From: Plasmopara viticola
Taxonomy: Eukaryota > Oomycota > Peronosporomycetes > Peronosporales > Peronosporaceae
Assembly (NCBI GenBank): GCA_001695595.3
Contig: MBPM02000005.1
Span: 1,488,001 to 1,552,000, forward strand
DNA length: 64,000 bases
Reading direction: 5' to 3'
Positions 1,709 through 61,030 of this stretch are shown piece after piece. The position numbers and the translations under genes are program-made. Positions within the stretch are counted from its first letter, which is position 1. Each line of letters begins with the position of its first letter. The notes below the pieces were generated by a model. That model did not search any database and had not been told where the DNA came from. It worked only from the letters and a program-made list of their open reading frames with translations.

Positions 1709-4599
1709 GTGCAGATCCCATTAATGCCAATGGAAACAGCGACCGTCACGAGTATTTCAAAGGCGCTGCGGCTCCCACGGCCTTTTCTAAATGAAACAAA
1801 TTGTGCGTTTCAGCAGCTGGAAACTTGGCAACAACTTGCGGCATTAGTGGCAACAGAATGCGTGAAAATCAAGCCATTGGGCTACTACCGAACGCCGGAT
1901 AGTATCGACATGTACGGAACTGGCTATCATACTATTTCTGATTGCTACGCTCTGATGAGGCTAATAGTATGATATATGATATATGTGATTATGCCCGTGT
2001 TTTTCTTCTCTCGTATAGCTACGTGTTTGAGTGCTCCATGGGCGATTGGTCCAGTGCTCGTCGGTACAGGTGGAAGGTCTACCGGCGGTATCGACACTTT
2101 AAAAATTATGTTGCTCACTCTTCGGAAGTGTTGGTGAGTCAGTCGGTCGGTATTCCGCAATTATCGCATTCATATCTAGAAATCTTTTATGCGCAAGACT
2201 GCAAAGACCGACTTGTGGAGCTACACACGTGGCTTGAAAGAGTCGTGGCAGTAACGCAACTTTATTGCAAAAAACTGTGTGAAAAGCGACAAAAAGTGGA
2301 GCTAGACAAGTTCGTGAAATTACAGCAACAAAGGCTCGCGCAATTAGAGACACCAGGCAAGCCAGTGATATCCAGAAAGCAAAAGAATCATAGTAGCAAT
2401 GACGTGACTGTGGGTATGACTTTCGACTCTTTTGAGTCAAGCCGAGTAGGTACGAGTAAACCCTTGTCCAAAGGTTCACAACGACGAAGTACTAGATTAA
2501 ATTTGAGGACGATTGAGCAGCAGCAAGATCCAAGACTAGATGTTAGACGGTTAGAAAACGCAGAGGCACTGCCGATTCTCATGCTAAGTTGCTTCCTTTT
2601 TGCGGGAGCCAACTGTCCGTTTCCGCACGTTTTTCAAGCTATACCGCGTTTTGCGTTGGCTTTACAGGAGCTGAACGTAAAGATTGACCAAAATGTGTAT
2701 CCTTCAAGACTGAAAAATCGTACAATTACGAAAGCTGGTTTGGGCCTACGCTTAATGCCGAGTCACGAGCAAGATGCAAAGTACTTTGGAGCCACAGTTG
2801 CAGGATTGCTTCGAAACCAAGAGGAAATGGATCCAGCTTTGATCAATGTGTCTGTGGGCGCACAATTAGTGCAAGTGAATGGGATTGATACCATCACGAT
2901 GCCGTTTGACCAGATCCTCGTTCAGTTGCGTCATGCAGGGGTACCATTGCGTTTAAAATTCCTCTATAATCGTCATAATAATTGTCCAAGAAGTGCTGGA
3001 ATCGCACTTAAAAGTAGTGGAAATACCACAACGTTACCGTGTACGAATCAGGTACCGAGTGGCAGTACCACCACTTTAGTGACTAAAACGCCATTGACTC
3101 ACTGTAGTGTGAGTGATGACAGACAGTCAACATCCAGTCTATTTTCCGCAATGTTTGGTGATTGGTTTGGCACTCGAAGGGTTTCTCAAACTCAAGGCAC
3201 AATGGGTACTGATTTAAACAATACGCTTGAAAAGCAACGAGGGACGTCGGCTGGGATCACATGGGAATCCACTTGGCACCCTAATGCGACAAGTTTGAAT
3301 TCTTGGGACGATATCAATGGAGCGTCTCGCGACCTTATTTCGCATGGCTTTTACTCGAAGTTATCATCGTCGCTGCTTTTCGAGTTAAATACTGCAAACA
3401 AGTCATCGATCTATTTTCCAGATCACGAAAATTGTGGTAATAATGAACATGAAGACAGCAGGAATCGTACCTTCCAAGGAGTCTGGAGTACGGCAAGTAC
3501 TTCCATGGGCTTAACTTTCAGTGCTTGTACAATCTACGGCGTTGAAGCGGTAATGCTGGCCTCTGATCCAGTCTTCTTCGCGTCCAGACCTGAGCATTGC
3601 GATAGCGAAAAGCGTCTTTGCAGAGGCTTTGTATTGGTTGCAATTAATCACAAGAGCACGTTTGGTGCCTCGATTGCCACAGTGTTTACACGCCTTTGCT
3701 CTGCGTGTCATCCGACGACATTGTGCTTTCGTTGGTTTGACAATTATAGTCCTCTCTTGCAAAAGGTTGTCAAACCTTATGACGGAAAGCAATCCTTTCG
3801 AGATATAATCTTTAATAATCGGCTGGATTGTATAGTGGAAGCACAGATCGGATTGAGCAACTGTCTGCAGCGTGCACTGACCGAGAACGCTGCTCTCCGT
3901 GATGAATTGAGTGTACTTCAAGATGCCCATCGCGAAGTGCGGCTCGCGCATGAGCGTGCTGCCCAGCGTGAGTATCTCCTTCAAGTGACAATTAAGCAGC
4001 TCAACTTGAAGCTTGCAAAATTGACAGAAAAAGTAGCTTTAGAACGTGCTAATTTGGACCAATCAAAGCGTCGAATGCAAGAGGCAGAGGCAGCAATGGC
4101 TGTCAAGACACGAGAACATGATGCAATGATGGTGCGAACACGAGAGACTGCAATGACGCGTTTAGCAGCGCAGCAAGAGCAACTGGTGAAAGAGTCGAAG
4201 CGTTCGATTGAAATGGCCACGCAATTGGTTGAAAAGCGAGCTCAGAAACGACTCGAGACCGCCGTGAGTGCATGTCAACGAGAACATGACGAATACCTGC
4301 AAAAATTGGCAGAAGAACACTCGGAAGAAATCCAAAGTCTTGCGCAGCAAGTTGCCGTATGGCGGCGTCAAGTTGAGATTCTGACAGAGGCTGAAAAACG
4401 TGATTATACGGCACTCATGAGCCTTGGCAGTAATCCCTACAGTGATTACCAGCGCTCTCGTTTCGGCTACATGAGTTCCGAGTTGCCATTTACTGATTTG
4501 AAGATCAACGACCAACGAAAACAGGAAAAGACATGTGACTCGAGTATTAATGTTAAGAAGCATAAATTGACGCAGTGGCAACGACAACTTGTCGAATAG
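1709..4599 (+). CDS. PX-domain protein with two PDZ-like regions and coiled-coil tail
   Basis: Two-exon model: exon 1 1709-1911, exon 2 2019-4599, 927 residues. The intron (107 nt) starts GTACGG and ends TCGTATAG; this pairing keeps phase and joins CVKIKPLGYYRTPDSID to YVFEC, which restores a PX fold (phosphoinositide binding), residues about 51-155, with the basic motif R90-R91-Y92-R93-H94-F95. A PDZ-like segment follows at about 286-385 (GLGLRL at its start, then QLVQVNGIDT and a closing LRLKFLY strand). A weaker second copy of the same pattern lies at about 565-645. Residues about 680-860 are a long charged coiled coil. PX proteins usually bind PI3P on endosomes, so a membrane-tethered scaffold or trafficking role is inferred. 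The start could also be M7. The ATG at 1942 lies inside the intron and is not used. The gene model is fairly sure; the second PDZ is tentative. Confidence 0.75.
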
Positions 4600-5117
4600 T
4601 TGCACGGACCGCGAGTATCATTATTTGCAGGTGAATGTCATTACTTCGAAATGTGGACCTGTAATACTTTTGTGATAATAAAATGGAAAAACGCCATGAA
4701 TAGGCCGTTCGGAATAATGTACATGCGTAATCTTTGGTGTAATGTACACGGCAATCTTTGGTTACATGCTAACTTTATCGGAAAAGTAAGATGGGAGAGG
4801 AAGCGCCTCTCGGCAGAGGGGGGAGGACGTGGGTTCGTGGACTAAAAGTAACTCAGCTCACAATAAAGTATCATTAGTAAGAGGCGGAAGCCATGAGCCT
4901 CGGAAGAATGGCAAGTCACTATTTCTTATCTTTGCAAAGAGCCAGAGTTTTTGTCGACTTATTCGGCACTGTGTACCAAATGTGAAATGTATTTAATTTG
5001 ATTATTACGGTAGAGCTCGGTGGGTGGTTGACTCTCTTCTGTACCAACTAGTCAGTAAGTGGCGTTTGCTCAGTCTTAAAAGGGCCCGAAAGCAACACGA
5101 CACGCAGCTCTTTCGCC
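4600..5117. other. Intergenic spacer between two plus-strand genes
   Basis: It holds the 3' end of the PX gene and the upstream region of the Arb2/kinase gene. An 81-codon frame at 4600-4845 has no features of a protein and is judged chance. No repeat or RNA gene is seen. Confidence 0.6.
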
Positions 5118-7757
5118 ATGATTAAGGTCAAGTGGGACTCTACCAAGAACGCCACTACAAGCTCAAATGACACAACACCAGCTAGTAGCACTGAACGCCC
5201 GACACTCACGGCGCTTATGGACGGGATTGTCATCACGAGCACCAGCAGTAGCAGTAGCAACGTGGCCACCACTCGACGTCCACCTCTTCCAAAATGGGAC
5301 ATGGGGACCATCTCCGAAGACACAATGCCCACGACGTTTACTGCCGCGTCTACTGGTTGGGTCAATGATCGCTACGAATTGACTGAAAGTGGGGAAGTAC
5401 GCAACAAGGCGAATCGCCAGCGTATCTCCAAGCTCGAGATTCGCGAACATGGCGAAGAGATTCTTCGTGGTCTGATTGATCACGTCCACACGCGCATGTT
5501 GCAAGAGCTGCTGTTTATGGAACAAGCGATTCCTCCACTTGAATTTGAGTGCGCTCCGGTTGCATCGGGCTTTGATCCCGGTGCTAGCGCGACTGGAAAT
5601 CGCTTGAGCTCGGTGGGATCTGTCCGCTCGAGCTCGTCTAGTATCTGTTCGACCAACGACGGCTTTCGTATGATGATTGACACGACTGAACCACGATGTA
5701 TCTTTCACACGAGCAAGAACTTTAGCGTCGCGGAGAAGCTCTTGGTCTTTGTCTGTTCGTTCCGTGGACTCAGTTGTGGGATCTGGAGCCGCAGTGTGTT
5801 ACTAAAAGATGGTGTCCAAGTCGGTTCCATGTTGCCCTATTTTCAGAAAGCGATTGAAGCCGGGTACGGTGTGTTGGTCATGAACCCAAACATGAATACC
5901 CAATTAATGGTCACGCAAGATGGAACCGTCGAGAAAATGCCCATTCGAGGCTCTAGTAATGCCGAGGAACATTGTGACCACGTCTGGCGCAATTATATCT
6001 TTCCATCCGCGGCCCATAAAGTGCACTTTATTGCTTATGGGTACGGGGGTGTTTTGGTTACCCAATTGATTGCCAAATACCGCTATGAACTCAAAAGTCG
6101 TCTCGGGAACGTCGCGTTTATTGAGAGTTCGCACAAAGTTGATCCATCGTGGAACTCGGGCTTCAAACGCTTCTTCTCGCAGCACAGTATTTCATGGTCT
6201 AGGTCGGACAGTATCCTCAATACGGAGCTCAGTCGCGACGCCACTGCAATTGCATCGACGAGTGGACCCAGTGGGATTGGCACGACATGTAGTGGTGACG
6301 ATGCTTTCTCCTCTGGTCCTTCGTCTCCATCGTCCCGCTTTCCAAAGAGTCCAAACGCTCAGTATATTGGTGTCGGATGCATTTGCTTGTCTGCAGGACC
6401 GTGTGAAGGAGCGAACGAGAGTCCGGCGTACACGACCAAGCAAGTCCTCGAGACAGTTTTCGCCTTCTTGGCGTCTCCAACGCCCTACGAATTTCAGCGG
6501 TGTGCTGCACGTGAAGTGCGCTTGAATGCGCTTTTAAAAGAACAGCAACAAGCTCAAAAGGAAGCCTCGACGGGAAACGAGGAGAGAAAAAGCGGGGCGA
6601 ACACTCATGCCCCACCTAGGGCCCCTGACGGTCTTGCCGACAGGGAAGGGAAACCTCGCGAAGATGATACATTGACGATTAACGACTTTGATCTATTACG
6701 AGTCGTGGGGCGAGGGGCGTTTGGCAAAGTGATGCTGGTACGGCGAAAAGTCGTCAAACCCCAAAAGGGAGCGCGATTATTGAGTCCACGCACAATGTTG
6801 TCCATGGGCATGACACCGCGCCAAATTGCGGGGGCGGCAGGAAGTGACGGTGGCAAAGTGTATGCCATGAAAGTTGTTAAGAAAGCGGCGGTGTTTGCGA
6901 AAAATCAGGTGGAACACACCAAAACGGAACGGCGAATTTTACAGGGCATTGACCATCCTTTTATGGTAAAATTGCGCTACGCGTTCCAAACGGACGCCAA
7001 GTTGTACTTTGTCATGGATTATTACAATGGCGGCACGCTGCACTTTCATTTACGCCGCGCCATGCACTTTGATGAAGTGCGGACGCGGTTTTATGCGGCG
7101 CAATTGGTCTTGGCCATCTCCCACCTCCATACGTACAATATTGTGTACCGGGACCTAAAACCAGAGAATATTTTATTGGACGACCAAGGGTACATTGCAC
7201 TCACGGATTTTGGTCTGTCGCACGACCGGTTTGACAGTAACGACGGGATGCAGACCTTTTGTGGGACCCCCGAGTACATTGCACCGGAGCTCATTCGTCG
7301 TGTCCCGTATGGCAAAGCCGTGGATTATTGGTCCATGGGCGTCTTGATTTTTGAAATGCTGGCGGGTTACACGCCGTTTTATCACACGAACCGAAAGCGT
7401 AATTTTCAAAATATTGTCAAGCTCCCGCTCCGGTTCCCCTCTGAGTTTTCGGACAATGCCCGATCATTGCTTCGTGGTTTGATCTGCCGGAATCCCGCCA
7501 AGCGACTGGGCTCTGGTCCATGTGGTGTCCAAGAGATTCTGGATCATCCGTTCTTCGCCAAAGTGGACTGGGAAAAACTATACAAGCGAAACGTTGTGGT
7601 TCCTTTTCGACCCGTGGTCATGTCAGACGGAGAAATCAACAATGTGCCGGAATTTTTCAAGCGACAAGAAGTGGTCGACTCGGTCGTTTCCGATGCACCG
7701 ATTGGCAAAAGCCACGTCTTCCAGGGCTTTTCGTACACAGATCCATGTAATTTGTAA
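5118..7757 (+). CDS. Arb2-domain / AGC-family protein kinase fusion
   Basis: Single exon, 879 residues. Residues 1-190 are Ser/Thr-rich with a short conserved-looking block (YELTESGEVRNK). Residues about 195-480 match the Arb2/FAM172 alpha/beta-hydrolase-like fold: GIWSRSVLLKDG, GSMLPYFQKAIEAGYGVLVM, NAEEHCDHVW, then the nucleophile elbow IAYGYGG and the ESSH segment. In FAM172 proteins the elbow is HSYGG, so the serine is Gly308 here and hydrolysis is unlikely. Residues about 522-790 are a complete kinase: GRGAFGKV, AMKVVKK lysine, YRDLKPEN (D near 678), DFGLS near 695, T-loop TFCGTPEYIAPE. The C-terminal AGC tail ends in the hydrophobic motif FQGFSY. A ~30-residue insert lies between kinase strands 2 and 3. 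The kinase should be active and PDK1-type regulated; substrates are unknown. I infer that the Arb2 part is a binding or regulatory module. Confidence 0.88.
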   Translation: MIKVKWDSTKNATTSSNDTTPASSTERPTLTALMDGIVITSTSSSSSNVATTRRPPLPKWDMGTISEDTMPTTFTAASTGWVNDRYELTESGEVRNKANRQRISKLEIREHGEEILRGLIDHVHTRMLQELLFMEQAIPPLEFECAPVASGFDPGASATGNRLSSVGSVRSSSSSICSTNDGFRMMIDTTEPRCIFHTSKNFSVAEKLLVFVCSFRGLSCGIWSRSVLLKDGVQVGSMLPYFQKAIEAGYGVLVMNPNMNTQLMVTQDGTVEKMPIRGSSNAEEHCDHVWRNYIFPSAAHKVHFIAYGYGGVLVTQLIAKYRYELKSRLGNVAFIESSHKVDPSWNSGFKRFFSQHSISWSRSDSILNTELSRDATAIASTSGPSGIGTTCSGDDAFSSGPSSPSSRFPKSPNAQYIGVGCICLSAGPCEGANESPAYTTKQVLETVFAFLASPTPYEFQRCAAREVRLNALLKEQQQAQKEASTGNEERKSGANTHAPPRAPDGLADREGKPREDDTLTINDFDLLRVVGRGAFGKVMLVRRKVVKPQKGARLLSPRTMLSMGMTPRQIAGAAGSDGGKVYAMKVVKKAAVFAKNQVEHTKTERRILQGIDHPFMVKLRYAFQTDAKLYFVMDYYNGGTLHFHLRRAMHFDEVRTRFYAAQLVLAISHLHTYNIVYRDLKPENILLDDQGYIALTDFGLSHDRFDSNDGMQTFCGTPEYIAPELIRRVPYGKAVDYWSMGVLIFEMLAGYTPFYHTNRKRNFQNIVKLPLRFPSEFSDNARSLLRGLICRNPAKRLGSGPCGVQEILDHPFFAKVDWEKLYKRNVVVPFRPVVMSDGEINNVPEFFKRQEVVDSVVSDAPIGKSHVFQGFSYTDPCNL

Positions 7758-8089
7758 GTCCAAAAGAGAGACTGAGTCAAGGGTCGAAGCCGTGAAGTTG
7801 AATGTGCTAGCGTAGACCAGAAAGTAGCTGGATTTTGTCGCGTAAGGTAGCAAGTCACACTACGACGAAAGCGTTAAATACATGTTGTAGCGTTTGTGGA
7901 GATAGAGCTGTTTGTCACCTCTTTTTATCTAAAAGCAGGGTAGTCGGACCAGCAAAAAGGCCTCTTTACGCTGCTAAAAAGGCTGTATTAGGACGCCATA
8001 CACTTTCCATGTAATCCATAGCGTATGTAAAGGTGCAGTTTTATTATTCAAATCTTTATACAAGGTCCCTTTTACCGAATCCTTTAGGT
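7758..8089. other. Convergent 3' spacer
   Basis: Short region between the stop codons of the plus-strand kinase and the minus-strand carbonic-anhydrase-like gene. It presumably holds both 3' ends. No other feature seen. Confidence 0.6.
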
Positions 8090-8982
8090 CTACAGAGATC
8101 CCTGGTTGAAAAAGTAGACAACGTCGTGCTTATTGAGGGGTTGAAGGGGGCGAATGTTGGACTGCTCGGGAAGCATAGCGTATAGCGCTTTCAGACTCTG
8201 CAATTCCGCGGGCGAGATCGCGAACGGATTCAACAGGACCCACCAATCGACGTCATCGCTGCACCCGGGCGTCGTTAAACTTCCGCTATAATTGAGCAAG
8301 TGCGTCGTTTTCACGAAATTACTCAGCATCTCGGCGTACTTGATGGAGTTTCCGCCCATATTCGACGAACCGTTCTCCATGCTTTTCAAGAGGTTTTGCA
8401 CAAATACGTTCGGTTGCGCGACATTGGTAGCTTGAAGAAACACCCCCACGACGAGGTGTTTGTTGCTTCCATCCATGGCCTTGTGGATGAATTGAAGCTC
8501 AGCATCGTAGCGTTGATTGTTGACCGTGTGCTCCGACGGTAGATGCAAGTAAAAGTCCACGAGTGAGTACTCGCGCATGTCATTCGTTGACTTGGCTATA
8601 CATTCTGCCACATAATAAAAGCAAGCCCAATGGTGTTAGCTCGGCGCCATGATCAACTTGAAGCATACTCACTTTGATCGTCTTGAATCTCCCATTTGAA
8701 TAAATTGTTCAGTTTCTTGACGACCGATTCATCGCAATCACCGCCGAATTGAACAGGGGGGTTGTTGATGTTCCACACTTCAATGTCCGAGATGTTTTGC
8801 ACGAAAAAGTTGATGGGGGACTGATGCTCTGATTTGCAGACCGAGTTCTCAAAGTGCCAGTCGTCATGGTCAAAATCATCGATCGGTGTACGGTTTATTC
8901 CCATTGGAGTGTTTGGATCGCGCTGGGAGGCCACTTGGCTCAGTGCCAAGAGAGGCAAGGCGAAAGTCGAAATGCGTGTCAT
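8090..8982 (-). CDS. Secreted alpha-carbonic-anhydrase-like protein lacking two zinc ligands
   Basis: Two exons: 8982-8673 and 8604-8090, with a 68-nt intron (GTGAGT...GTGGCAG), 274 residues. A signal peptide (MTRISTFALPLLALSQVASQ) is followed by an alpha-carbonic anhydrase domain: WHFENSVCKSEHQSPINF, FYLHLPSEHTV, AELQFIH, LLNYSGSLTTPGCSDDVDWW. In the active family the three zinc histidines sit in H-x-H and in E-L-H. Here the first is Tyr122, the second His124 remains and the third is Gln141, so zinc binding and CO2 hydration are probably lost. This parallels animal carbonic-anhydrase-related proteins, which keep the fold for binding. It is a close paralogue of the intact enzyme at 17525-18440: the intron phase and the 310-nt first exon are identical. 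The rest of the gene is undamaged, so it looks maintained rather than dead. Export or cell-wall location is inferred from the signal peptide. Confidence 0.88.
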
Positions 8983-9020
8983 GATGTTTGTTGAGTGGAA
9001 AGGAAATTTGAAAGTGAAGT
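8983..9020 (-). promoter_or_regulatory. Core promoter and 5' leader of the ligand-less carbonic-anhydrase gene
   Basis: Reading on the minus strand, ACTTCACTTTCAAATTTCC begins exactly 38 nt before the ATG. It resembles the oomycete initiator plus flanking promoter region (TCAYTTY followed by an A/T-rich AAATTT). The paralogous gene carries ACTTCAGTTTCAAATCTCC at the same distance. Confidence 0.5.
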
Positions 9021-12000
9021 CTTGAGGACGCTTTTGAATGGCAAGCGTCCTAGCTAACCTTTTGAAAGCTATAGGCTATTTGAGGGTCTAGATACGTATC
9101 ATGAATTACCCGGCGAAACGACCGCGCCTTTCCGCTTCGTAAAGTAGTATTGGTTTTGACAGCGTATAAGGACCCATGACGAGTAGGCTAAGAAGCTAAG
9201 CGTATCTTTGCTAAAAAGCCGACTTTTTAATACAACGATTTAAGAGCGACCATTGCACTAGATAAATCAGACGCGCTGATTTCTTAAATTTATGTGAAAG
9301 CCGAAAAAATCAGGACAGAGGTTGCTCGGAAAATCAGGAAACTGAGACTCTTTACTCGTCCGAGTTGCAACACAAGATGAGGAGCAATTGCGTTTCAAAG
9401 GAGCCAAGCTTCTGTGAAATAGCATTGCTTCAGAGCAAGACAAGACAGAGAAACGGCTTGGACAGGCTCAGCATGCAAAGACCGAGCTAGGTGAGCACCA
9501 GTGGCGCTTGTCACTCTTTTCGGATAAAGCTTTTAGAAACGACTGCGATTTACAAGCTCGCCCTCGTCAAATCATACGTATCTAAACACCACTGCACACA
9601 TTGTCACAAGCACTACAATGTTTGTGGCACCCACTTGGAAAGTACACGACAATTTTGCGAGAGTTTAGGCGTTCGAATTGCATGGTGCCATGTAGTTTTT
9701 TAACCAAACAGAGGGCACCGGTTTACAAACGACACCCGAATGACTGTTTCTCGATCGTATTCTATCTCGTTCTTTGTTGAGAGAGTAAACAACGCGGTAA
9801 CTCTTCGGCGCGTCTCAAGCGGGCCGGCTTTCGAAACAATTAGGATTTGTATTAGTATGCATAATGAGAAAATGAATTTCTGTTTAAAGTGTGGTAGCAA
9901 ATTCGGTCGCAAATTAAAAATGGGAGGCAAGATTAATCCTTTGTGCGGAACATTGGGGCAGATAATTAATGTCACTGACTGACGAATGAAAGCAAAATTT
10001 ATGATAGGGTCAGATTGTCAGCAGCTTATCCATGTTCATCGCAGGCAAAAAATTGAAAAACAGGCGGAATCAGATGCCTAAGTCGTGGTTAATGTAAGAG
10101 ATGGTGCCAGTGCTAGAGGTTCCATTTCAGGCCTTTTTGTTTGGGTGGTGGTGATTCTGTAAGTGGTAAGTCAGGTGATACTGTCATCGGTTATAGTGTT
10201 TTAGGCATGGAGGTGATATTGATGATTCCGCTGCGAAAAGTGCTCACGCAACAATCGAGCAAGCAGTGAGTTGCTGCAGCTGATCGACTTTCGCACGCAT
10301 TAAAAGGCTAAAATCCTGTGCAGTTGGAAAATGAGTCTACAGTCGGGTCTAATTAAGAAAATGCATAAACATCTACCTGCTTATATTGCTGCGAAAACAA
10401 GATGTGTGTGGATCGACTGTTTAATCAAAGGAGATCTTATCAGTATTGCGTAAAATAGGAGTTCCACGAATTTAACGTGTCACAATAATGGGTGTCTTAC
10501 TACATCAGTCAAGCGCGAATGTCAACAAATGGAAAGTTAACAAAAAAGCAATACGTGGTCCCACTGCTAGTCAGAAATTACTGTGCTAGACAGTAAGTGT
10601 GAGTGTATGTGACCCAATTATAAAAGGGCTATACAATTTTGAGATTAGTGACAACATTTGGAGTGAAGCAGATAGTAATCTGCGACTCGTATTCGTTTCA
10701 AAAACCGAGCAAAGGTCAGAGACTTATATCAACTAACTTAATAGCAGCGACAGCAATGCCGCACCTGTAGATGTTGCCAAAAGATTCAGCTCTGATCCAT
10801 AGAGGTCAAAAAAATGGTCATGATGTCTGCCTTGATGCGGACGATAGAACAAAGAGAGGCTCTTAACGTCTGAAAAGTCGGTAAGATAGCATACGAATGG
10901 GCACTCACGTACAATTTCTGAGCTCAAGCCGTCCTTTACACCTGGTTTAAGCTCAAGCGTCAGCTGGTGTATATCCCTTTACCACCATTTGTTCATGGTT
11001 CTACTTTCTTTCTGCTCGCCGTTAGTAAAAAGCTTTGGCGAAAATAGTGTCGGAGTTACGCAATCTGCTAATTGGGATAGCCGGTAAACTTTCCCAGAGA
11101 AGATTGGAGACACCATCTTTATGGGCAGTGTGTGCACAGGCGCGGCCCAGGCGTAGATACTCCTTGTGCCCCAGCCTATTTACGAAGACCTTGAAAGTGG
11201 CGTTGAATGCCACGTTCGATTGCTTTGAGGAATGTGATAAAAAGGAGTCTCACAGAGCCATGCAGTCTGGTGCTCATGAATCTCAGCTATGCCAACAATA
11301 AGGGAGTATGCATTTGGACTGTAGGCCATCATTCGGTCATCCAGCGACACTTCAGCTATGGTGATACCTGCCATTTGCAGTCAAGATGGCTCTTACACCA
11401 AGTGCTCCAGAATTCAAGGTGCCAAAATTTCTCAACCATCAGTCGCCTAAAGTTTCGCGGGAAACGACAACAATTAGCTGATGTGAAGGCCTTGCTAATA
11501 ATGAAGTAAGTTCGTTTCGGCCGCTGCAAGAAACTAAAGCACTATTGATCCAAGCTTTCAAAAGCTACGTGCTAGAAACACGGATCGTGTCGGCAAGCCT
11601 TTCTTGCAGATGATTGAAATAGTTTTTGATAAGCTATGTTTTACCCTCGCCGAATTTGGTAATCGATGATTTACTGGAATATGCCTTTGTACGAGCACAT
11701 TGACGTGACATTGACACTGCTTAGATAGCGATATCACTGTATCGTGGATCCCAGTAAGTTTAGGATCAAAGTTTTATGACTCTGATAGTTTCGAGCAGTG
11801 GTTGCTCTTAGACCTCGATAAGAAGCATGAAATAACTCAAAGTATTAAATGGCTGAAGTGCTATGAGATCTGGGCCGATCGAATGCCGAAACTTTAAAGC
11901 CCCTCACTTTATTTTCGCAGAGCTTTGGTGTCGTAAATTTACCTTTTGGTGGAGAGAAGGAGGGCTATCGGTGCAAATTCTGGACCGTGTCGGTTAGCAT

Positions 12001-20800: not shown

Positions 20801-23800
20801 ATGAGCGACGTGGACGACGAAGCCACCGCTTCATGTTCGGACGATCGGCAACTCTTTGCGTTTCGTGACAATCTGCGCGACAATGCCGTTTGTGCCAAAG
20901 TCCATGGGGTACGCGGTGTACCCACGAGTGGTACCTTGCAACTCCTCGAAGATAAAGTGACGGTACGATGGCAAATGGACCCATGGCCTTTCACCAAATA
21001 CGTACCGCTGGGTCTTCTCCACTACGTGCAAGTCCCCGACATACAATTTACCCTTTCCGACCTCAAAAGTGTACGCACAGGACGTCAGACGACGAATTTT
21101 GTACGCACGTTGAAATACGTGCCGGTCGAAGCCGTCCCTGCCAACGACGACCTCTGCCTCTCGCTCTGTTGCTCTCACGCCACTGACGACGCCAAAGTCC
21201 GATTTTTCGATCTCGAATTCCGCGACAAAACCACGCGGGACGTTGCCAAAGCCTTCTTTCGCCACCAAGCCCAGCTCCATGCCGAGGACGAACCCACGAG
21301 TTACTCCGACATTCACCTCCCATCGGGTCTCTCGACGACATGCTATCAACTCAGTGTCCATCCGTCGTTTCAACTTGGTGTCTTCCTAATAGTCGTCGGC
21401 AGTATGGTGGCGATCGGGGCACACGATCCAATGGCACGTGGTGGCATGCCACTCGTCGACACGTTGCTCTTGTTCTTCCTCACTCTCGAACAGCTGATCA
21501 AAGTCATTGGCTTGGAAGGCTTTGCAACCATGGTGCACAATAAATGGGACGCGTTCGAGTTTGTCATTGTCGCCATCAGCTGGCTCGCGGTCGTGCCCGT
21601 CGCGTCGCTCCGTGGCTGGAACCTCTTGCCCTTGCGCATCTTTCGCGGCGTGCGGCTCTTTACCCACTGGCCACGGTTCCAAGAAACCCTCGACACGTTC
21701 CTCGTCGCGTTGCCTTTGGCATGGAAAGCCGTGCTGTGTTATACTTACTACCTCGTGCTCTTTGCCATCTTGGGCATGTACCTCTTTGGTACGTCGCTAT
21801 CGCATCGCTGTGCGCTGGCAACGGAGTCCGAGCCGGGCCTTTTCACGGAAGAAACGGGGACCTATGTCCCCGAGACGCCCGTTCATTTCTGTACGCCCAA
21901 CGCACACACATCGGGGTGTAAAGGCAAGATGGAATGTGTTTTCATGGTACCCCCCGACTGGGGGTACACGGGCTTCCATTCGTTCCAAGCCTCGTTTCTC
22001 ACCGTTTTTCTCATCACGTTACGGTCGGGCTTTGGCCCCGCCCTCGATGGGACGCAACAAGCCACGTCGTACTTTGCCCTCGTCTACTTTATTGGCCTCC
22101 TCGTCGTGGTGAGTTACATGATCCTCTCGCTCTTTGTCGGGATCGTTCGCGAGAGTTACATTACCGTCTCGATCCGGCGTACCGACACCAGGGTCCACCA
22201 AGACCACGCACGCCAATTGTACCTGGCCAAAAAACGGGTACAATTCCCCCAAGGTACCGAAACGTGCCCAGACCTGGTACAATGGGGCACGCAGACGTAC
22301 CACACTTACCGGGCCCACGTCCTGCACGTCATCTTGCACTCGTTCCTATTCACGCGACCCGACGATACCTTTCTCAGCTGGTGCCGCTTGCGGCACGATC
22401 GGATTTTCTTTCTGCTCGACGTCGATAGTCCGCTCATGGATAAAATCGCGCGCCTCGCCGACTCGCCCGCGTTGGAACATTTCATGAACGTCATTGTCTT
22501 TTTCAATTCCATCCTCTTTGCGCTCGAGTACCACGGCATGGACGCGACGTACGCCACGCGTCTCTACACGATCGAAAACGTCTTGGTGCTAATCTACGGC
22601 GTCGAATTCCTCGTCCTCGCAGCGGCGGCCCACGGCCTCGTCCACTACCTGCAAAATCCATGGAATCGCTTGGATTTTTTCCTCCTCGTCGTCGCGGCGC
22701 TCGAAGGCCTGCTCCTCGCCACGTCGCTCGTCCTGTACACCGACAGCTACGCCCGCGGCATCTTTGTCCTCCGCTTGTTTCGCCTCGTGCGCCCGTTTCG
22801 CGTCGTGCGGCACAACAACCGCCTGTTGCTCGTGCTCGACGCAATCTTGGCGTCCTTGCCAGCGTTCCTCAGCTCCATGGCCTTTTTCCTCCTCCTCAAC
22901 ACGGTCTTTGCGGTCGTGGGCATGAACGTCTTTGACGGGACCGTGCCACCCGCGCACTTTGCCACGTTTCGCGACAGTATGCTCACTTTGTTGAAATTCG
23001 CCAACGGCGCAAGTATCTGGCCGATTTTTCACGCGTCACTCCACGCCACGTCCGTGGGCGTCGCGCTCGTCTACTACTTGACGTACGTCGTCTTGTGTCG
23101 CTTCTTGGCCCTGAATTTCATGCTCGTCGTCTTGCTCCGGAATTTTGCCATGAAAGGCGACGAACGGCGCAAGACCTTGAGCGGATTGTTTCAAGACCGC
23201 ATGTTTGTCTTGCAACGCATCCATCGCTTTGACCTCGAGACGTTCGTGCACGAATTCGGCAATCTGTACCACGAAGACGTCATGAACATTAGTCTCTCTG
23301 GCAGTCCCAAGCGACGCGTAGAACGCGCGCTCTCGGCGTCCGAAGCGTTCAAAGCTCGTCTCTTGAACGTCGTGCCCACGTCGGATTTTTTAAAATTAAA
23401 GGGCTATTACGGCACATCACGCAACTATCCACACGGGCGCAAATATCGGCTGCTGGATGGACAGTATCCGTCGAAAAATCTCGCCGTCGTGACCCCAATG
23501 GAAGAAGCAACGAAGCCGACTGGATCCACCGAAAATCCAACTCGCGAGGACGTAACAGAGCTATTCGCTTCGAGAGGATTTTTGGGCCAGGCCAAGCCCT
23601 GTTGCAATGGCCATTGGCTCCTGGCCGACGTTTCGCTCTTCGTCTTCCCGCCCCAGTCGTGGGTCCGCCTGCAAGCCCGACGATGGGAGAAAGAGACGGA
23701 AAAGTACATTTTCGGCGCCATTGTGCTCCGGACCATCATGTTGACGGTCCAGTCGCCGCTGTACTCGACGCTCATTCAAGAATTCACGACGCTCAGTGAC

Positions 23801-26176
23801 GTCGTCTACGCCTGCATTTTGTTTTTCGAATTTGCCGTCAAAGTCATTGCTCGAGGCTTCTTCTTGACGCCCCAGAGCTATTTATCCAACACGTGGAACC
23901 AAATTAATCTCGTCGTCCTCCTCGCGTGCGCCTTGCTCTTGCTCTTGCCCCACTCGACCATGATCTCGCTCTTTCGCCTCGGCCGCGCGTTCGGGCCCAT
24001 TCGCGTCTTTTACCGCGTCCGGACGTTTCGCGTCATTACCGCCGCGTTAAAAGAATCCGCGCGGCCGATTTTCTACTGTGTCGTGCTCTCCCTGTTTGTC
24101 TTTTATTCGTTCGCAACGCTTGGGATGCAGATTTTTGGTGGCCGCTTTGCCTACTGCAACGATTTATCCATTGACTCGAAAGACGCGTGTGTGGGCGTGT
24201 TTCAAATGAATGCCACGCACGTCTTGACGCCGCGGGTCTGGGGCAATCTCTCGGGCTTGCACTTTGATACGATCACGGGGGCCATGGCGTCGATTTTCTA
24301 TCTACTCTCCATGAAAAAGTGGGTCCCTGTCGTGAACAGTGCCATGGATTTCATCGATGAAACGGAGGTGACCAAAGACCATCCCGTCGCGGCCATTGCG
24401 TCGACGTACTTGGCCGGCTTTTTCGTCGCCTTTCTCTTCTTTACGCGCTTTTATCTTCTAAAAGTCTTTGCGGGGATCCTCATCAACAACTTTCGGTGTT
24501 ATAACGGCACGCTCTTGCTCACGACCGTGCAATTACTGTGGTTTCGGAAAAAACAAGCGATTTTGGCTTTGCGGCCCAAATATCCATTGCCCACCAGTAG
24601 ATTCATGCAAGTGGCCCAAGGGCAGATCCAAACCCGCGGGTTTCGTGGAGCGATCAGTACCATCGTGCTGGTACACACGTCGGTACTCGCGTGGTACCGC
24701 GCGCCGCTTGCGACGTCTCCACTCGATGCAACGATCGATTCGCGGGTCTGGTGGCTCCATTACGTGTTCTCGCTCCTCTACGCGTTCGACGCCGTCGTGC
24801 GCGTCGCGGCCGTGGGCTGGCGCGATTTTGTCTTGAAAGGATTTACGTGGCGCACGTTCAATACGTGCACGGCGTTTCTCATGCTCGTGGGGCCCCTCGT
24901 GGCGCCGTCGCCCGTGCTCTTGATCTTGGGCATGACGCGCGCGTTTGATTTCAAGCACTTGTCGCTCGTGCTCGACCGCTCGCAAGCTCTTGGGACGTTG
25001 TTCCAAACGTTGTTGGCCAGTGTACCATTGATCCTCAAAGTCACGCTCTTACTGGGGTACGTCTTGTTTGTGTTTGCCATCGTCGGGGTCCAAGTCTTTT
25101 CGTTGACGCGCTGGGCCAATGGCTTGACTGCCAATTTAAACCTCACGACCTTTCCAAGTGCCTATGCAACGTTTGTCAAATTCGCGGCCGGCGAAGACTG
25201 GTACGCCACGTATGTGGCGTCCCGTGTCGCCCCGCCCCAATGTGTCGCAGGGCGTGCGTCCAGTGATTGTGGCTCGCCGGTCATTAGTGCGTTGTTTTAC
25301 AATAGTTTTTACGTCCTGGTTGTCCTAGTGCTACAGAATCTCTACGCTTCGACGATGGTGGACACGTACGTGTTAATGTCCGCCCGCGCCGATGCAAAAG
25401 AGAAGATTTTGGGCTTCCAAGCCGCCGATTTGCACCAATTTCAGAAAATTTGGAGTGAATTCGACACGGATGCGTTGGGATTGGTTCATAAAAAACATTT
25501 ATGGGCCCTCTTGAATCGACTGGACCCACCATTGGGACTGGGTACGTTCCACGCCATGCGCGCACGTCTTGCGACCGAAGACATGACGCCCGACAAGTGG
25601 CACGCGCTCTCGCTGGCGGTACATCAACGACGACGCGAAATGTTTCATGATATTGAAGCACGACTCGCGGAACTCACGTACCGAGTGCGGCTGGGGCTCG
25701 GGACGTCCGATGGGTTGACTGGCAATGGGAATATGAGCCCGAGTGCCGACTTGACGTGTCCTGTGAACATGGTGCGCTTTACGGACGTCCTCTTGGTCGT
25801 GACGATGCGGGTGGTGCCGCTTGAAAGCTTGACTGTGCCGGAAAAAGTCGACGAACTGGCCATGCGTGGCTATGCCTTTCGGCACCGCAGAGCCATTATG
25901 ATCCAGTCGAGTTTTCGTATGTATCGAACACGACGTCGCATTGGGGCGAGGTTACGTAGGACGCGACGGGCAAGTCAAGGCGATGCATTGGAACACGTGC
26001 CAAGAAAGCGGTACGAGCACGAGCTGGGACCGCAAGGACAAGGGACAGAGAGTGTGGAAGTGATTGAATGCGAGCAGTTGCAAGAGAAGGCGACGGTGCG
26101 AATGGAAAAGAGTGTACTCATCACTTTGCAACAAAGCACCGACCCGGATCCTGTGCGATCAATCCCTGAACGCTGA
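20801..26176 (+). CDS. Four-domain voltage-gated cation channel alpha subunit
   Basis: Intronless, 1791 residues. It has four six-helix repeats as in CaV/NaV/NALCN channels: I about 190-446, II 556-777, III 970-1230, IV 1283-1523. S4 helices are RIFRGVRLF (I), RLFRLVRPFRVVR (II) and FRLGRAFGPIRVFYRVRTFR (III); repeat IV has only GMTRAFDFKHL. The residues two before the pore tryptophan/phenylalanine read Ser (TLRSGF), Ser (GASIW), Lys (SMKKW) and Glu (GEDW), unlike EEEE calcium or DEKA sodium filters. After IVS6 comes the conserved EF-hand-like segment (IWSEFDTDALG...LDPPLGLG) and, near 1700, an IQ motif (MIQSSFRMYRTRRRIG) for calmodulin. Residues 20-170 before the first helix look like a PH/GRAM-like beta domain (inference). 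It should sit in the plasma or flagellar membrane; ion selectivity is uncertain. Codons are GC-rich compared with flanks. Confidence 0.9.
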   Translation: MSDVDDEATASCSDDRQLFAFRDNLRDNAVCAKVHGVRGVPTSGTLQLLEDKVTVRWQMDPWPFTKYVPLGLLHYVQVPDIQFTLSDLKSVRTGRQTTNFVRTLKYVPVEAVPANDDLCLSLCCSHATDDAKVRFFDLEFRDKTTRDVAKAFFRHQAQLHAEDEPTSYSDIHLPSGLSTTCYQLSVHPSFQLGVFLIVVGSMVAIGAHDPMARGGMPLVDTLLLFFLTLEQLIKVIGLEGFATMVHNKWDAFEFVIVAISWLAVVPVASLRGWNLLPLRIFRGVRLFTHWPRFQETLDTFLVALPLAWKAVLCYTYYLVLFAILGMYLFGTSLSHRCALATESEPGLFTEETGTYVPETPVHFCTPNAHTSGCKGKMECVFMVPPDWGYTGFHSFQASFLTVFLITLRSGFGPALDGTQQATSYFALVYFIGLLVVVSYMILSLFVGIVRESYITVSIRRTDTRVHQDHARQLYLAKKRVQFPQGTETCPDLVQWGTQTYHTYRAHVLHVILHSFLFTRPDDTFLSWCRLRHDRIFFLLDVDSPLMDKIARLADSPALEHFMNVIVFFNSILFALEYHGMDATYATRLYTIENVLVLIYGVEFLVLAAAAHGLVHYLQNPWNRLDFFLLVVAALEGLLLATSLVLYTDSYARGIFVLRLFRLVRPFRVVRHNNRLLLVLDAILASLPAFLSSMAFFLLLNTVFAVVGMNVFDGTVPPAHFATFRDSMLTLLKFANGASIWPIFHASLHATSVGVALVYYLTYVVLCRFLALNFMLVVLLRNFAMKGDERRKTLSGLFQDRMFVLQRIHRFDLETFVHEFGNLYHEDVMNISLSGSPKRRVERALSASEAFKARLLNVVPTSDFLKLKGYYGTSRNYPHGRKYRLLDGQYPSKNLAVVTPMEEATKPTGSTENPTREDVTELFASRGFLGQAKPCCNGHWLLADVSLFVFPPQSWVRLQARRWEKETEKYIFGAIVLRTIMLTVQSPLYSTLIQEFTTLSDVVYACILFFEFAVKVIARGFFLTPQSYLSNTWNQINLVVLLACALLLLLPHSTMISLFRLGRAFGPIRVFYRVRTFRVITAALKESARPIFYCVVLSLFVFYSFATLGMQIFGGRFAYCNDLSIDSKDACVGVFQMNATHVLTPRVWGNLSGLHFDTITGAMASIFYLLSMKKWVPVVNSAMDFIDETEVTKDHPVAAIASTYLAGFFVAFLFFTRFYLLKVFAGILINNFRCYNGTLLLTTVQLLWFRKKQAILALRPKYPLPTSRFMQVAQGQIQTRGFRGAISTIVLVHTSVLAWYRAPLATSPLDATIDSRVWWLHYVFSLLYAFDAVVRVAAVGWRDFVLKGFTWRTFNTCTAFLMLVGPLVAPSPVLLILGMTRAFDFKHLSLVLDRSQALGTLFQTLLASVPLILKVTLLLGYVLFVFAIVGVQVFSLTRWANGLTANLNLTTFPSAYATFVKFAAGEDWYATYVASRVAPPQCVAGRASSDCGSPVISALFYNSFYVLVVLVLQNLYASTMVDTYVLMSARADAKEKILGFQAADLHQFQKIWSEFDTDALGLVHKKHLWALLNRLDPPLGLGTFHAMRARLATEDMTPDKWHALSLAVHQRRREMFHDIEARLAELTYRVRLGLGTSDGLTGNGNMSPSADLTCPVNMVRFTDVLLVVTMRVVPLESLTVPEKVDELAMRGYAFRHRRAIMIQSSFRMYRTRRRIGARLRRTRRASQGDALEHVPRKRYEHELGPQGQGTESVEVIECEQLQEKATVRMEKSVLITLQQSTDPDPVRSIPER

Positions 26177-58930: not shown

Positions 58931-61030
58931 ATGGCCGACGATCTTGTCGCTTATCCTGCCGCACCGTTGCCGTCTCAGGTCAGAGAGCCAACGTCTCGAT
59001 TCCTCGCCGACACGCTGCAATTTCACCGCACGAGTGACGCAGGCTCCCCGTCCTCGACTACAGATACGTCCGAAGCTTCTACGTGCATGGCGTCACCCGC
59101 TTTCTCGTTCATAGCAGAAGAAGAGCCATTGCCCCAACACGGTCGGGCTAGCTCGATGGGGTCCTCAGACTGGGAGGATTTGCACAAGATACAGAGTCCA
59201 AGTGGGAAACGGTGTTGCCGTAGTTTTCTATTGCATCGAGTGCCAATGGTCGCTGGATTCCTCAAGAGCTGGAAACGACGCTATTTTTGCCTGCAAGACG
59301 ATGGGCTCGTGTGTTATCCGACTCGGGAGGCCACGACACCGCTGTTTCACGTATTTTTTACCAGTCAAACCGTGTTGACTTCGAACCCACCATTTGTAGA
59401 GCGAAAGCGTAGCATCAAGACACCTTCTTATAACACGACAAGTCTAGACTTGGTTGCCACACATCGACGCGGTGGCCATTCGGATGCGCTGACGCTTACA
59501 CTTGAGCATGTGGAGGCCACGAATGCAGTGGAGAGTCCACTCGTATTAAAAGCAGAGAACGATGAGGACTACGTATTGTGGATGGAATGCTTGGCTCATA
59601 CGATAGACGTGCGTACAGGCGCAAGGCTTCAAGTCGCAGCTACGCTTAGCGACATGGACAAGATGTTTTGGCCAGCACAAAAGCAATTCGATGACTGGAG
59701 TGTTCGATTGCGTTTAAACGATGAGAACAATGGTCGGTATGACCCTAGGCAGGCTCAAGTCGAGTCGTTTGAAGCCTTTTCCTCGACGTATATGCTCTTG
59801 AAAGAGATTGGGGAAGGCTCGTTCTCGATTGTGCACCGTGCAGTGAATCGCAGGACGAGTCAAATGTGCGCAGTCAAATGTTGCAAGGTTTCGCAAGCGT
59901 TGGCCGAAGAGGAGCGACTGCTACGTACATTTTCGCACCCCAATCTCGTTCAACTCCACGGGGTATACAAGCGGAGCTCGCATCTTCATTACGTGGTCAT
60001 GGACTACTTAAAAGACGGCGATTTGTGTGACTTGCTGATTGAACGGCAGCGCCTGACAGAGACTGAAAGTCGACGCCTCATTCGTCAAGTAGTCGAGGGC
60101 CTCGCATACTTGCACCGACGCTGTGTACTGCATCGCGATATTAAGCCGGAAAATATTCTGATCCATGGCAATCTGGTAAAAATTGCCGATTTTGGACTGG
60201 CCAAGGAACTCGAAAAACCGACGAGTAAGCTCACACAGGGTTGTGGTACGTTGGAATACGCAGCGCCAGAGGTATTGTGTGGACAACCGTATGGTCTTAA
60301 ATCCGACGTCTTTAGCCTCGGGATTGTGCTCTATGTGCTGCTCTTTGGTGCTTTTCCGTTCAGTGTCGAATCTGCAGCGGCTTTACAGCAAAAGGAACCA
60401 TTTCTCTTGCATGACGACGTGCGCGATATGAGCTGCTTGAGCCGCTCGAATGTGCTGTGGCGATCCGTGAGCCCCTTGGCGCAAGACGTGGTGCTAAAGA
60501 TGCTCAAGGTAAACGATGCTGAGCGTATTTCTGCGAAGGACTTGCTGGGTCATCCTTGGTTCACAAACATTGACGAAGAAAGTGGCGGCGATGGCATTCC
60601 GAACGACTTTGAGCTCGTTCGAATCGAGGATTGCGAAGCATTGGGTTTTGCTGAGCTCCTTTCTCGTGGCTTCCAGGTTGTCAAATATGGTCACAAGAAC
60701 TCAACACTACCTCACTCTACTCTCCTGGCCGTCAATTATATGGAGGAGTGTATCACCTGGACTGCCCGAGACAAGTCAAAATCAATGCGAACGTCTGGAA
60801 GCAATAAGCGAGGGCGTGTCATCTCGCTTCGTGAGATTCAAGAAATCAATGAGGGCCATACAACCAAAGCATTTCTTTTCCGCGAGCAATCGAACGTCAT
60901 ACCACGACCAGAGCTTTGCCTTTCCATCGTTTGTCCATGGCGAACGCTTGATATTGTGATGGAGGCGCCGAGTCAGCGCGACTTTATGGTACGCGGTCTT
61001 CAGCGACTTCTTGGGATCGCTGTCCAGTAA
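58931..61030 (+). CDS. PH domain - Ser/Thr kinase - PH-like domain protein
   Basis: Single exon, 699 residues. A Ser-rich leader is followed by a PH domain at about residues 98-235 (VAGFLKSWKRRYFCLQDDGL ... DEDYVLWMECLAHTID). A complete CAMK/CDPK-like kinase lies at about 286-545: IGEGSFSIVHRA, AVKCCK lysine, HRDIKPENIL near 399, DFGLA near 418, activation loop GCGTLEYAAPE, and HPWF at its end. The tail (about 579-697) has the strand pattern and closing helix of a second PH-like domain: HTTKAFLFR, CLSIVCPWRTLDIVMEAPSQ, DFMVRGLQRLLG. There are no EF hands, so this is not a classic CDPK. PH domains suggest recruitment to phosphoinositides and lipid-linked control. Substrates unknown. Confidence 0.88.
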   Translation: MADDLVAYPAAPLPSQVREPTSRFLADTLQFHRTSDAGSPSSTTDTSEASTCMASPAFSFIAEEEPLPQHGRASSMGSSDWEDLHKIQSPSGKRCCRSFLLHRVPMVAGFLKSWKRRYFCLQDDGLVCYPTREATTPLFHVFFTSQTVLTSNPPFVERKRSIKTPSYNTTSLDLVATHRRGGHSDALTLTLEHVEATNAVESPLVLKAENDEDYVLWMECLAHTIDVRTGARLQVAATLSDMDKMFWPAQKQFDDWSVRLRLNDENNGRYDPRQAQVESFEAFSSTYMLLKEIGEGSFSIVHRAVNRRTSQMCAVKCCKVSQALAEEERLLRTFSHPNLVQLHGVYKRSSHLHYVVMDYLKDGDLCDLLIERQRLTETESRRLIRQVVEGLAYLHRRCVLHRDIKPENILIHGNLVKIADFGLAKELEKPTSKLTQGCGTLEYAAPEVLCGQPYGLKSDVFSLGIVLYVLLFGAFPFSVESAAALQQKEPFLLHDDVRDMSCLSRSNVLWRSVSPLAQDVVLKMLKVNDAERISAKDLLGHPWFTNIDEESGGDGIPNDFELVRIEDCEALGFAELLSRGFQVVKYGHKNSTLPHSTLLAVNYMEECITWTARDKSKSMRTSGSNKRGRVISLREIQEINEGHTTKAFLFREQSNVIPRPELCLSIVCPWRTLDIVMEAPSQRDFMVRGLQRLLGIAVQ

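Follow-up and report, generated by a model that had tools for sequence, protein, structure and literature searches.

What would an Arb2 domain, a module with an alpha/beta-hydrolase-like fold, be doing at the front of a protein kinase? This question is raised by a gene of the oomycete Plasmopara viticola, located in a 64,000-nucleotide stretch of contig MBPM02000005.1 (the window), where an Arb2 module and an AGC kinase are fused in one open reading frame (ORF) of the genomic DNA. The original prediction, made from the letters of the window, described the N-terminal half as Arb2 and the C-terminal half as a complete AGC kinase, and both assignments hold. In a profile scan of the window protein, the Pfam Arb2 model PF22749, whose cut-off is 26.8 bits, scored 98.7 bits, with its match at residues 188–364, in the region where the lack of any such score had been envisaged; the N-terminal half scanned by itself gave Arb2 at an E-value of 1.3e-28. 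The Pkinase model reached 221.5 bits at residues 576–813, and no FYVE match was obtained for the window protein in the Pfam scan. The kinase core is intact, with Lys585, YRDLKPEN, DFG and APE, and the two AGC hallmarks, a T-loop site (Thr713) and a C-terminal hydrophobic motif (FQGFSY), are both present. The best matches of the kinase among solved structures include RAC-beta, RAC-alpha (AKT), ribosomal S6 kinases and SGK1.

The structure predicted for residues 85–491 (mean predicted local distance difference test score, pLDDT, 80.2; predicted template modelling score, pTM, 0.77) has an Arb2-type alpha/beta-hydrolase fold. When the predicted module was used in a structure search, the nearest folds were the Arb2 domains of Clr3 and Hda1. 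According to the secondary structure of the model and the alignment, the module covers about residues 85–460, which is more than was originally drawn. The model places Gly308, as had been proposed, at the strand–helix turn where a hydrolase nucleophile would sit, the strand ending at model residue 224, which is residue 308 of the protein. The Ser nucleophile of active serine hydrolases is thus replaced by Gly in the window gene. The elbow residue was aligned across the window class (45 database proteins, P0001–P0045, P0001 being the window's own) and is Gly in 44 of them and Asp in the remaining one. In FAM172 this position presumably holds a Ser (HSYGG). A weak alignment with the Clr3 sequence (E 0.042) sets Gly308 opposite a Gly there too, Gly548. 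Since the Clr3 Arb2 domain is itself described as devoid of a catalytic triad (PMC11878206), the missing elbow Ser is not unusual for Arb2.

A second active-site residue is missing as well. The His that follows the last strand in active serine hydrolases is not found in the window gene; after strand 8, it occurs in one of the 41 covered rows of the window class versus 30 of 30 in the class of L015, a paralogue of Arb2–FYVE–kinase type. The Glu that could serve as acid after strand 7 in the L015 class is retained in 6 of 46 window-class rows. The Glu of the ESSH motif is common to all classes seen, with L022 (Gln) as the exception, and is probably structural for that reason. The module is well conserved: a 47-row alignment of the window, L016 and L014 classes contains 21 invariant columns, all before residue 460, although, with some rows lacking a kinase, invariance of the kinase columns was hardly to be expected.

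The reading that we favour, with evenly divided confidence, is that the window class consists of AGC kinases with a pseudo-enzyme Arb2 module, which acts by binding, likely through dimerisation or docking, and controls the kinase. AKT and SGK3 resemble the window gene in having an N-terminal regulatory domain followed by an AGC kinase, and the Arb2 module would take the place held by PH in AKT and by PX in SGK3. Having lost the nucleophile and the usual His, the module would be a pseudo-enzyme, and by analogy its most likely function would be that of a dimerisation or docking module. Dimerisation is favoured because the Hda1 Arb2 domain is reported to homodimerise via an arm, which also disrupts its substrate pocket (PMC5036196), and because FAM172A is reported to self-associate (PMC10205598). 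Docking or dimerisation may then govern how the kinase is activated or which substrates it chooses; Thr713 and Ser872 would be the switch sites usual for AGC kinases, and PDK1 would be the kinase acting on Thr713. These comparisons have their limits: as described, Clr3 and Hda1 carry Arb2 C-terminal to a deacetylase, in contrast to its N-terminal position on a kinase here. FAM172A/ARB2A also has a large ARB2 domain (PMC10205598).

The architecture was announced as new in the original prediction, which does not stand, since Judelson and Ah-Fong (2010, PMC3019232) reported an N-terminal Arb2 domain on an AGC kinase of Phytophthora infestans, PITG_06776, which has orthologues in P. ramorum, P. 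sojae and H. arabidopsidis; the window gene is of this published kind. The same report states that Arb2 is absent from all other known kinases. Its Table 2 contains two Arb2 kinases, versus the eight distinct genes described below. The second of these two is presumably PITG_01365, which is named with a FYVE domain in the legend of Figure 2. Among the literature matches listed for Arb2 with oomycete, Phytophthora, FYVE or protein kinase, of which PMC11878206 was the other paper looked into, Arb2 on a kinase was not seen beyond PMC3019232; PMC6502433 only cites an AGC kinase paper.

Functional data come from another group of relatives. Five FYVE kinases of Phytophthora sojae have been named PsZFPK1–5, of which PsZFPK1 was studied (PMC10381902); they differ from the window gene, which has no FYVE match, and the word Arb2 does not occur in the main text of that paper. 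PsZFPK4 (360424) is P0071, a member of the L015 class. As for PsZFPK1, the likely orthologue in P. viticola is L021, judging from a similar FYVE core (RRIPCS in PsZFPK1, RRITCS in L021), an Ala in the hydrophobic motif (Ala766 and Ala807) and the same 164-residue spacing from the T-loop Thr (T602 and Thr643) to this Ala. The Pfam Arb2 match of L021 has an E-value of 4.6e-15, and our own Arb2 profile, which includes L021 among its seeds, puts the domain at residues 44–371 of the L039 frame. Residues 2–321 of PsZFPK1 would correspond to about residues 43–362 in L021, the location of its Arb2 module. This N-terminal region is reported to be required for growth, for the sporangium and oospore phenotypes and for virulence, and PsZFPK1 without it fails to rescue the mutant. 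The GFP pattern of PsZFPK1, strongest in the nucleus and equal to that of the empty GFP vector, is unchanged by removal of the region (PMC10381902). A role other than localisation is favoured, since the truncated protein fails in rescue yet is distributed as before.

The window gene belongs to a family. A six-frame search of the 92.9 Mb genome (358 contigs), which is blind to introns, gave 11 places for PF22749 among the matches listed. They correspond to eight distinct genes and their second copies, each of the eight encoding Arb2 together with a kinase within a single open frame, and all eight kinases also match the AGC kinase of the window; no stand-alone Arb2 protein appeared among these 11 matches. 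L016 and L017 are 99.96% identical across 6,966 bases on different contigs, and L020, at a contig end and with two in-frame stops in its Arb2 match, shares 98% identity with the L019 region across 3,336 bases, also on a different contig; from their sequences, both pairs are perhaps second copies or uncollapsed haplotypes. FYVE is below cut-off in L021 and L022. The Arb2 of L022 is borderline (28.2 bits in the genome search and 25.7 in the protein scan, for the same cut-off of 26.8); our own profile scores it strongly, with L022 itself in the seed. Additional exons are possible in L018, L019 and L022, a later one being likely in L018, since its kinase match ends at profile position 240 of 263. 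The L018 ORF (13–4584) encodes 1523 residues with PH repeats, Arb2 and kinase. PF09757, another model searched, gave no match in the genome; none was obtained in the control genomes either, and this null result thus shows no absence.

A decayed Arb2 module on other AGC-like kinases was looked for with our own profile, using up to six ORFs per locus, and none was seen in 21 loci. The scan covered 25 loci (L028–L052), 30 of the 46 kinase matches having a locus, and exons farther upstream than about 1.4 kb would escape it. The only recoveries were L034, L036, L039 and L041, which are already Arb2 genes and part of the profile seed. In a kinase tree of 28 rows, which omits L032 (a copy), L040 (stops) and the four loci just named, the Arb2 label requires 2 changes versus 7.9 in shuffles. 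A single origin of the fusion is neither shown nor firmly excluded.

Several points weigh against a pseudo-enzyme module that controls the kinase. An Asp at a possible acid position, near that Glu, is kept in 26 of 46 window-class rows, the window gene included, and the active site is therefore not wholly erased; this count and the fold result for the L015 class speak slightly against the proposal. The localisation of PsZFPK1 is weak evidence, since free GFP gives the same pattern, and the likely identity of L021 with PsZFPK1 was drawn from features that the paper quotes. No experiments on the window class were found in the literature. Finally, a single clade of Arb2-bearing kinases is mildly rejected by the kinase tree (p-AU, approximately unbiased test, 0.043), so that more than one origin of the fusion, or losses in places, are possible.

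Among the alternatives, the one that survives best, though we hold it to be quite doubtful, is a hydrolase-derived receptor similar to plant GID1, in which a lipid or small ligand would switch the kinase. GID1, however, scores no higher than many hydrolases in the same fold-match list, and in Hda1 the dimer arm leaves the pocket disrupted (PMC5036196). It is unlikely that the dead module links the kinase to chromatin or Argonaute silencing, as the original prediction suggested. The Hda1 Arb2 domain is indeed reported to bind histones (PMC5036196) and FAM172A to bind AGO2 (PMC10205598), two Piwi-domain matches are found in the genome, and PsZFPK1–GFP is strongest in the nucleus, but the empty GFP vector gives an equal nuclear signal (PMC10381902). 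Moreover, sister Arb2 kinases bear FYVE, C2 and PH domains. Such domains bind membranes or lipids in other proteins. The silencing link appears thus as a transfer by name. That the module is a relic without present function, carried along on an ordinary kinase, would agree with the loss of two active-site residues; it is made very improbable by the 21 invariant columns and by the need of PsZFPK1 for its N-terminal region (PMC10381902). Two genes or a misjoined gene model, to which the 9 of 45 window-class records with no kinase match might point, can practically be dismissed, the ORF being uninterrupted in genomic DNA and the domain order identical in 36 of the 45 members and in the paralogues.

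These 36 window-class proteins have both precomputed Arb2 and Pkinase matches, the combination that had been proposed as a search target. A plain count of the catalytic-loop motif gave 30 of 45, a count that omits 8 of 45 proteins devoid of the motif, six of them of Saprolegniales type (P0040–P0045). The nearest protein with a name is from Plasmopara halstedii (87% identity, searched region 1–500). No non-oomycete relative was seen among the named proteins of three protein searches, the rest having no taxon name; since these searches depend on shared exact words and one of them scored the best 7983 candidates, a wider spread outside oomycetes is possible. FAM172 was likewise absent from the results of protein searches with this exact-word requirement. 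Four Arb2 proteins outside the named oomycete classes, also with no taxon name, have Gly at the elbow (P0061, P0064, P0053 and P0096); FYVE is found on P0061 and P0064, and a kinase on P0061, P0053 and P0096. In an Arb2 tree using 54 of 107 sequences, L022 being omitted for its partial domain, the positions of L018, L019 and L021 are unsure owing to long branches.

Table 1. Features of the Arb2–AGC kinase gene, with positions in the window, and members of the gene family.
Feature	Residues	Position	Strand	Basis or remark
Whole Arb2–AGC kinase ORF	879 aa	5118..7757	+	ATG to TAA, single frame, no internal stop
Arb2 (alpha/beta-hydrolase-like) module	~85–460	5370..6497	+	Model, fold matches, alignment; boundaries are the author's reading
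Disordered insert 1 in Arb2 module	144–183	5547..5666	+	Low pLDDT
Pfam PF22749 Arb2 match	188–364	5679..6209	+	E 4.6e-28
Nucleophile-elbow position (IAYGYGG)	Gly308	6039..6041	+	Model and class alignment
ESSH, after strand 6	336–339	6123..6134	+	Alignment
Disordered insert 2 in Arb2 module	375–417	6240..6368	+	Low pLDDT
Loop past last strand	428–436	6399..6425	+	No His, alignment
Linker from Arb2 module to kinase	486–522	6573..6683	+	Frame stays open
AGC protein kinase domain	~524–813	6687..7556	+	Pfam and structure matches
Insert of ~34 residues, glycine loop to catalytic lysine	546–579	6753..6854	+	Author's reading of sequence
T-loop Thr (TFCGTPEYIAPE)	Thr713	7254..7256	+	Sequence motif
Hydrophobic motif FQGFSY, site Ser872	868–873	7719..7736	+	Sequence motif
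Eight Arb2-kinase genes				Window gene; L014; L015 (FYVE); L016; L018 (PH repeats); L019 (C2, FYVE); L021; L022

Further searches at the locus were less informative. A PDB search with alignment A2 returned kinases only (best 60 of 2821), because the alignment held full-length rows; 13 NCBIfam kinase models matched, every one below cut-off, and Rfam gave no match across window positions 4000–9500. Upstream of the gene lies an ORF of 885 residues (1942–4599, plus strand), for which Pfam gave no match at E 0.001, and just downstream a carbonic anhydrase match (8090–8611, minus strand). Arb2 and carbonic anhydrase matches occur together in a Phytophthora kernoviae record (P0038), in which two conserved neighbours were perhaps merged into one gene model. 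Elsewhere in the window, an ORF of 1791 residues (20801–26176, plus strand), in which Ion_trans matches four stretches and GPHH matches as well, resembles a four-domain voltage-gated calcium channel, and one of 699 residues (58931–61030, plus strand) combines a PH with a protein kinase domain.

The pairing of Arb2 with a kinase has been known since 2010; the present analysis adds a view of the whole family, the division into intact-looking and dead hydrolase modules, and the link to PsZFPK1. We tentatively consider, at well below even confidence and from sequence comparison, that the Arb2 module of the L015 class (Arb2–FYVE–AGC, PsZFPK4 type) could be a working Ser–acid–His hydrolase, with the window class and others as regulatory pseudo-hydrolase sisters. 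If true, one kinase family would contain both a functioning enzyme and dead copies of it. Of the 20 kinases in the AKT group of P. infestans, no more than 6 are reported to have a recognised PH or PX domain (PMC3019232), and the Arb2 module could be the regulatory part for several AKT-group kinases. It also provides a likely identity for the needed yet unexplained N-terminal region of PsZFPK1, and would allow an active-looking hydrolase module and a dead one to be tested side by side on related kinases of a crop-pathogen lineage.
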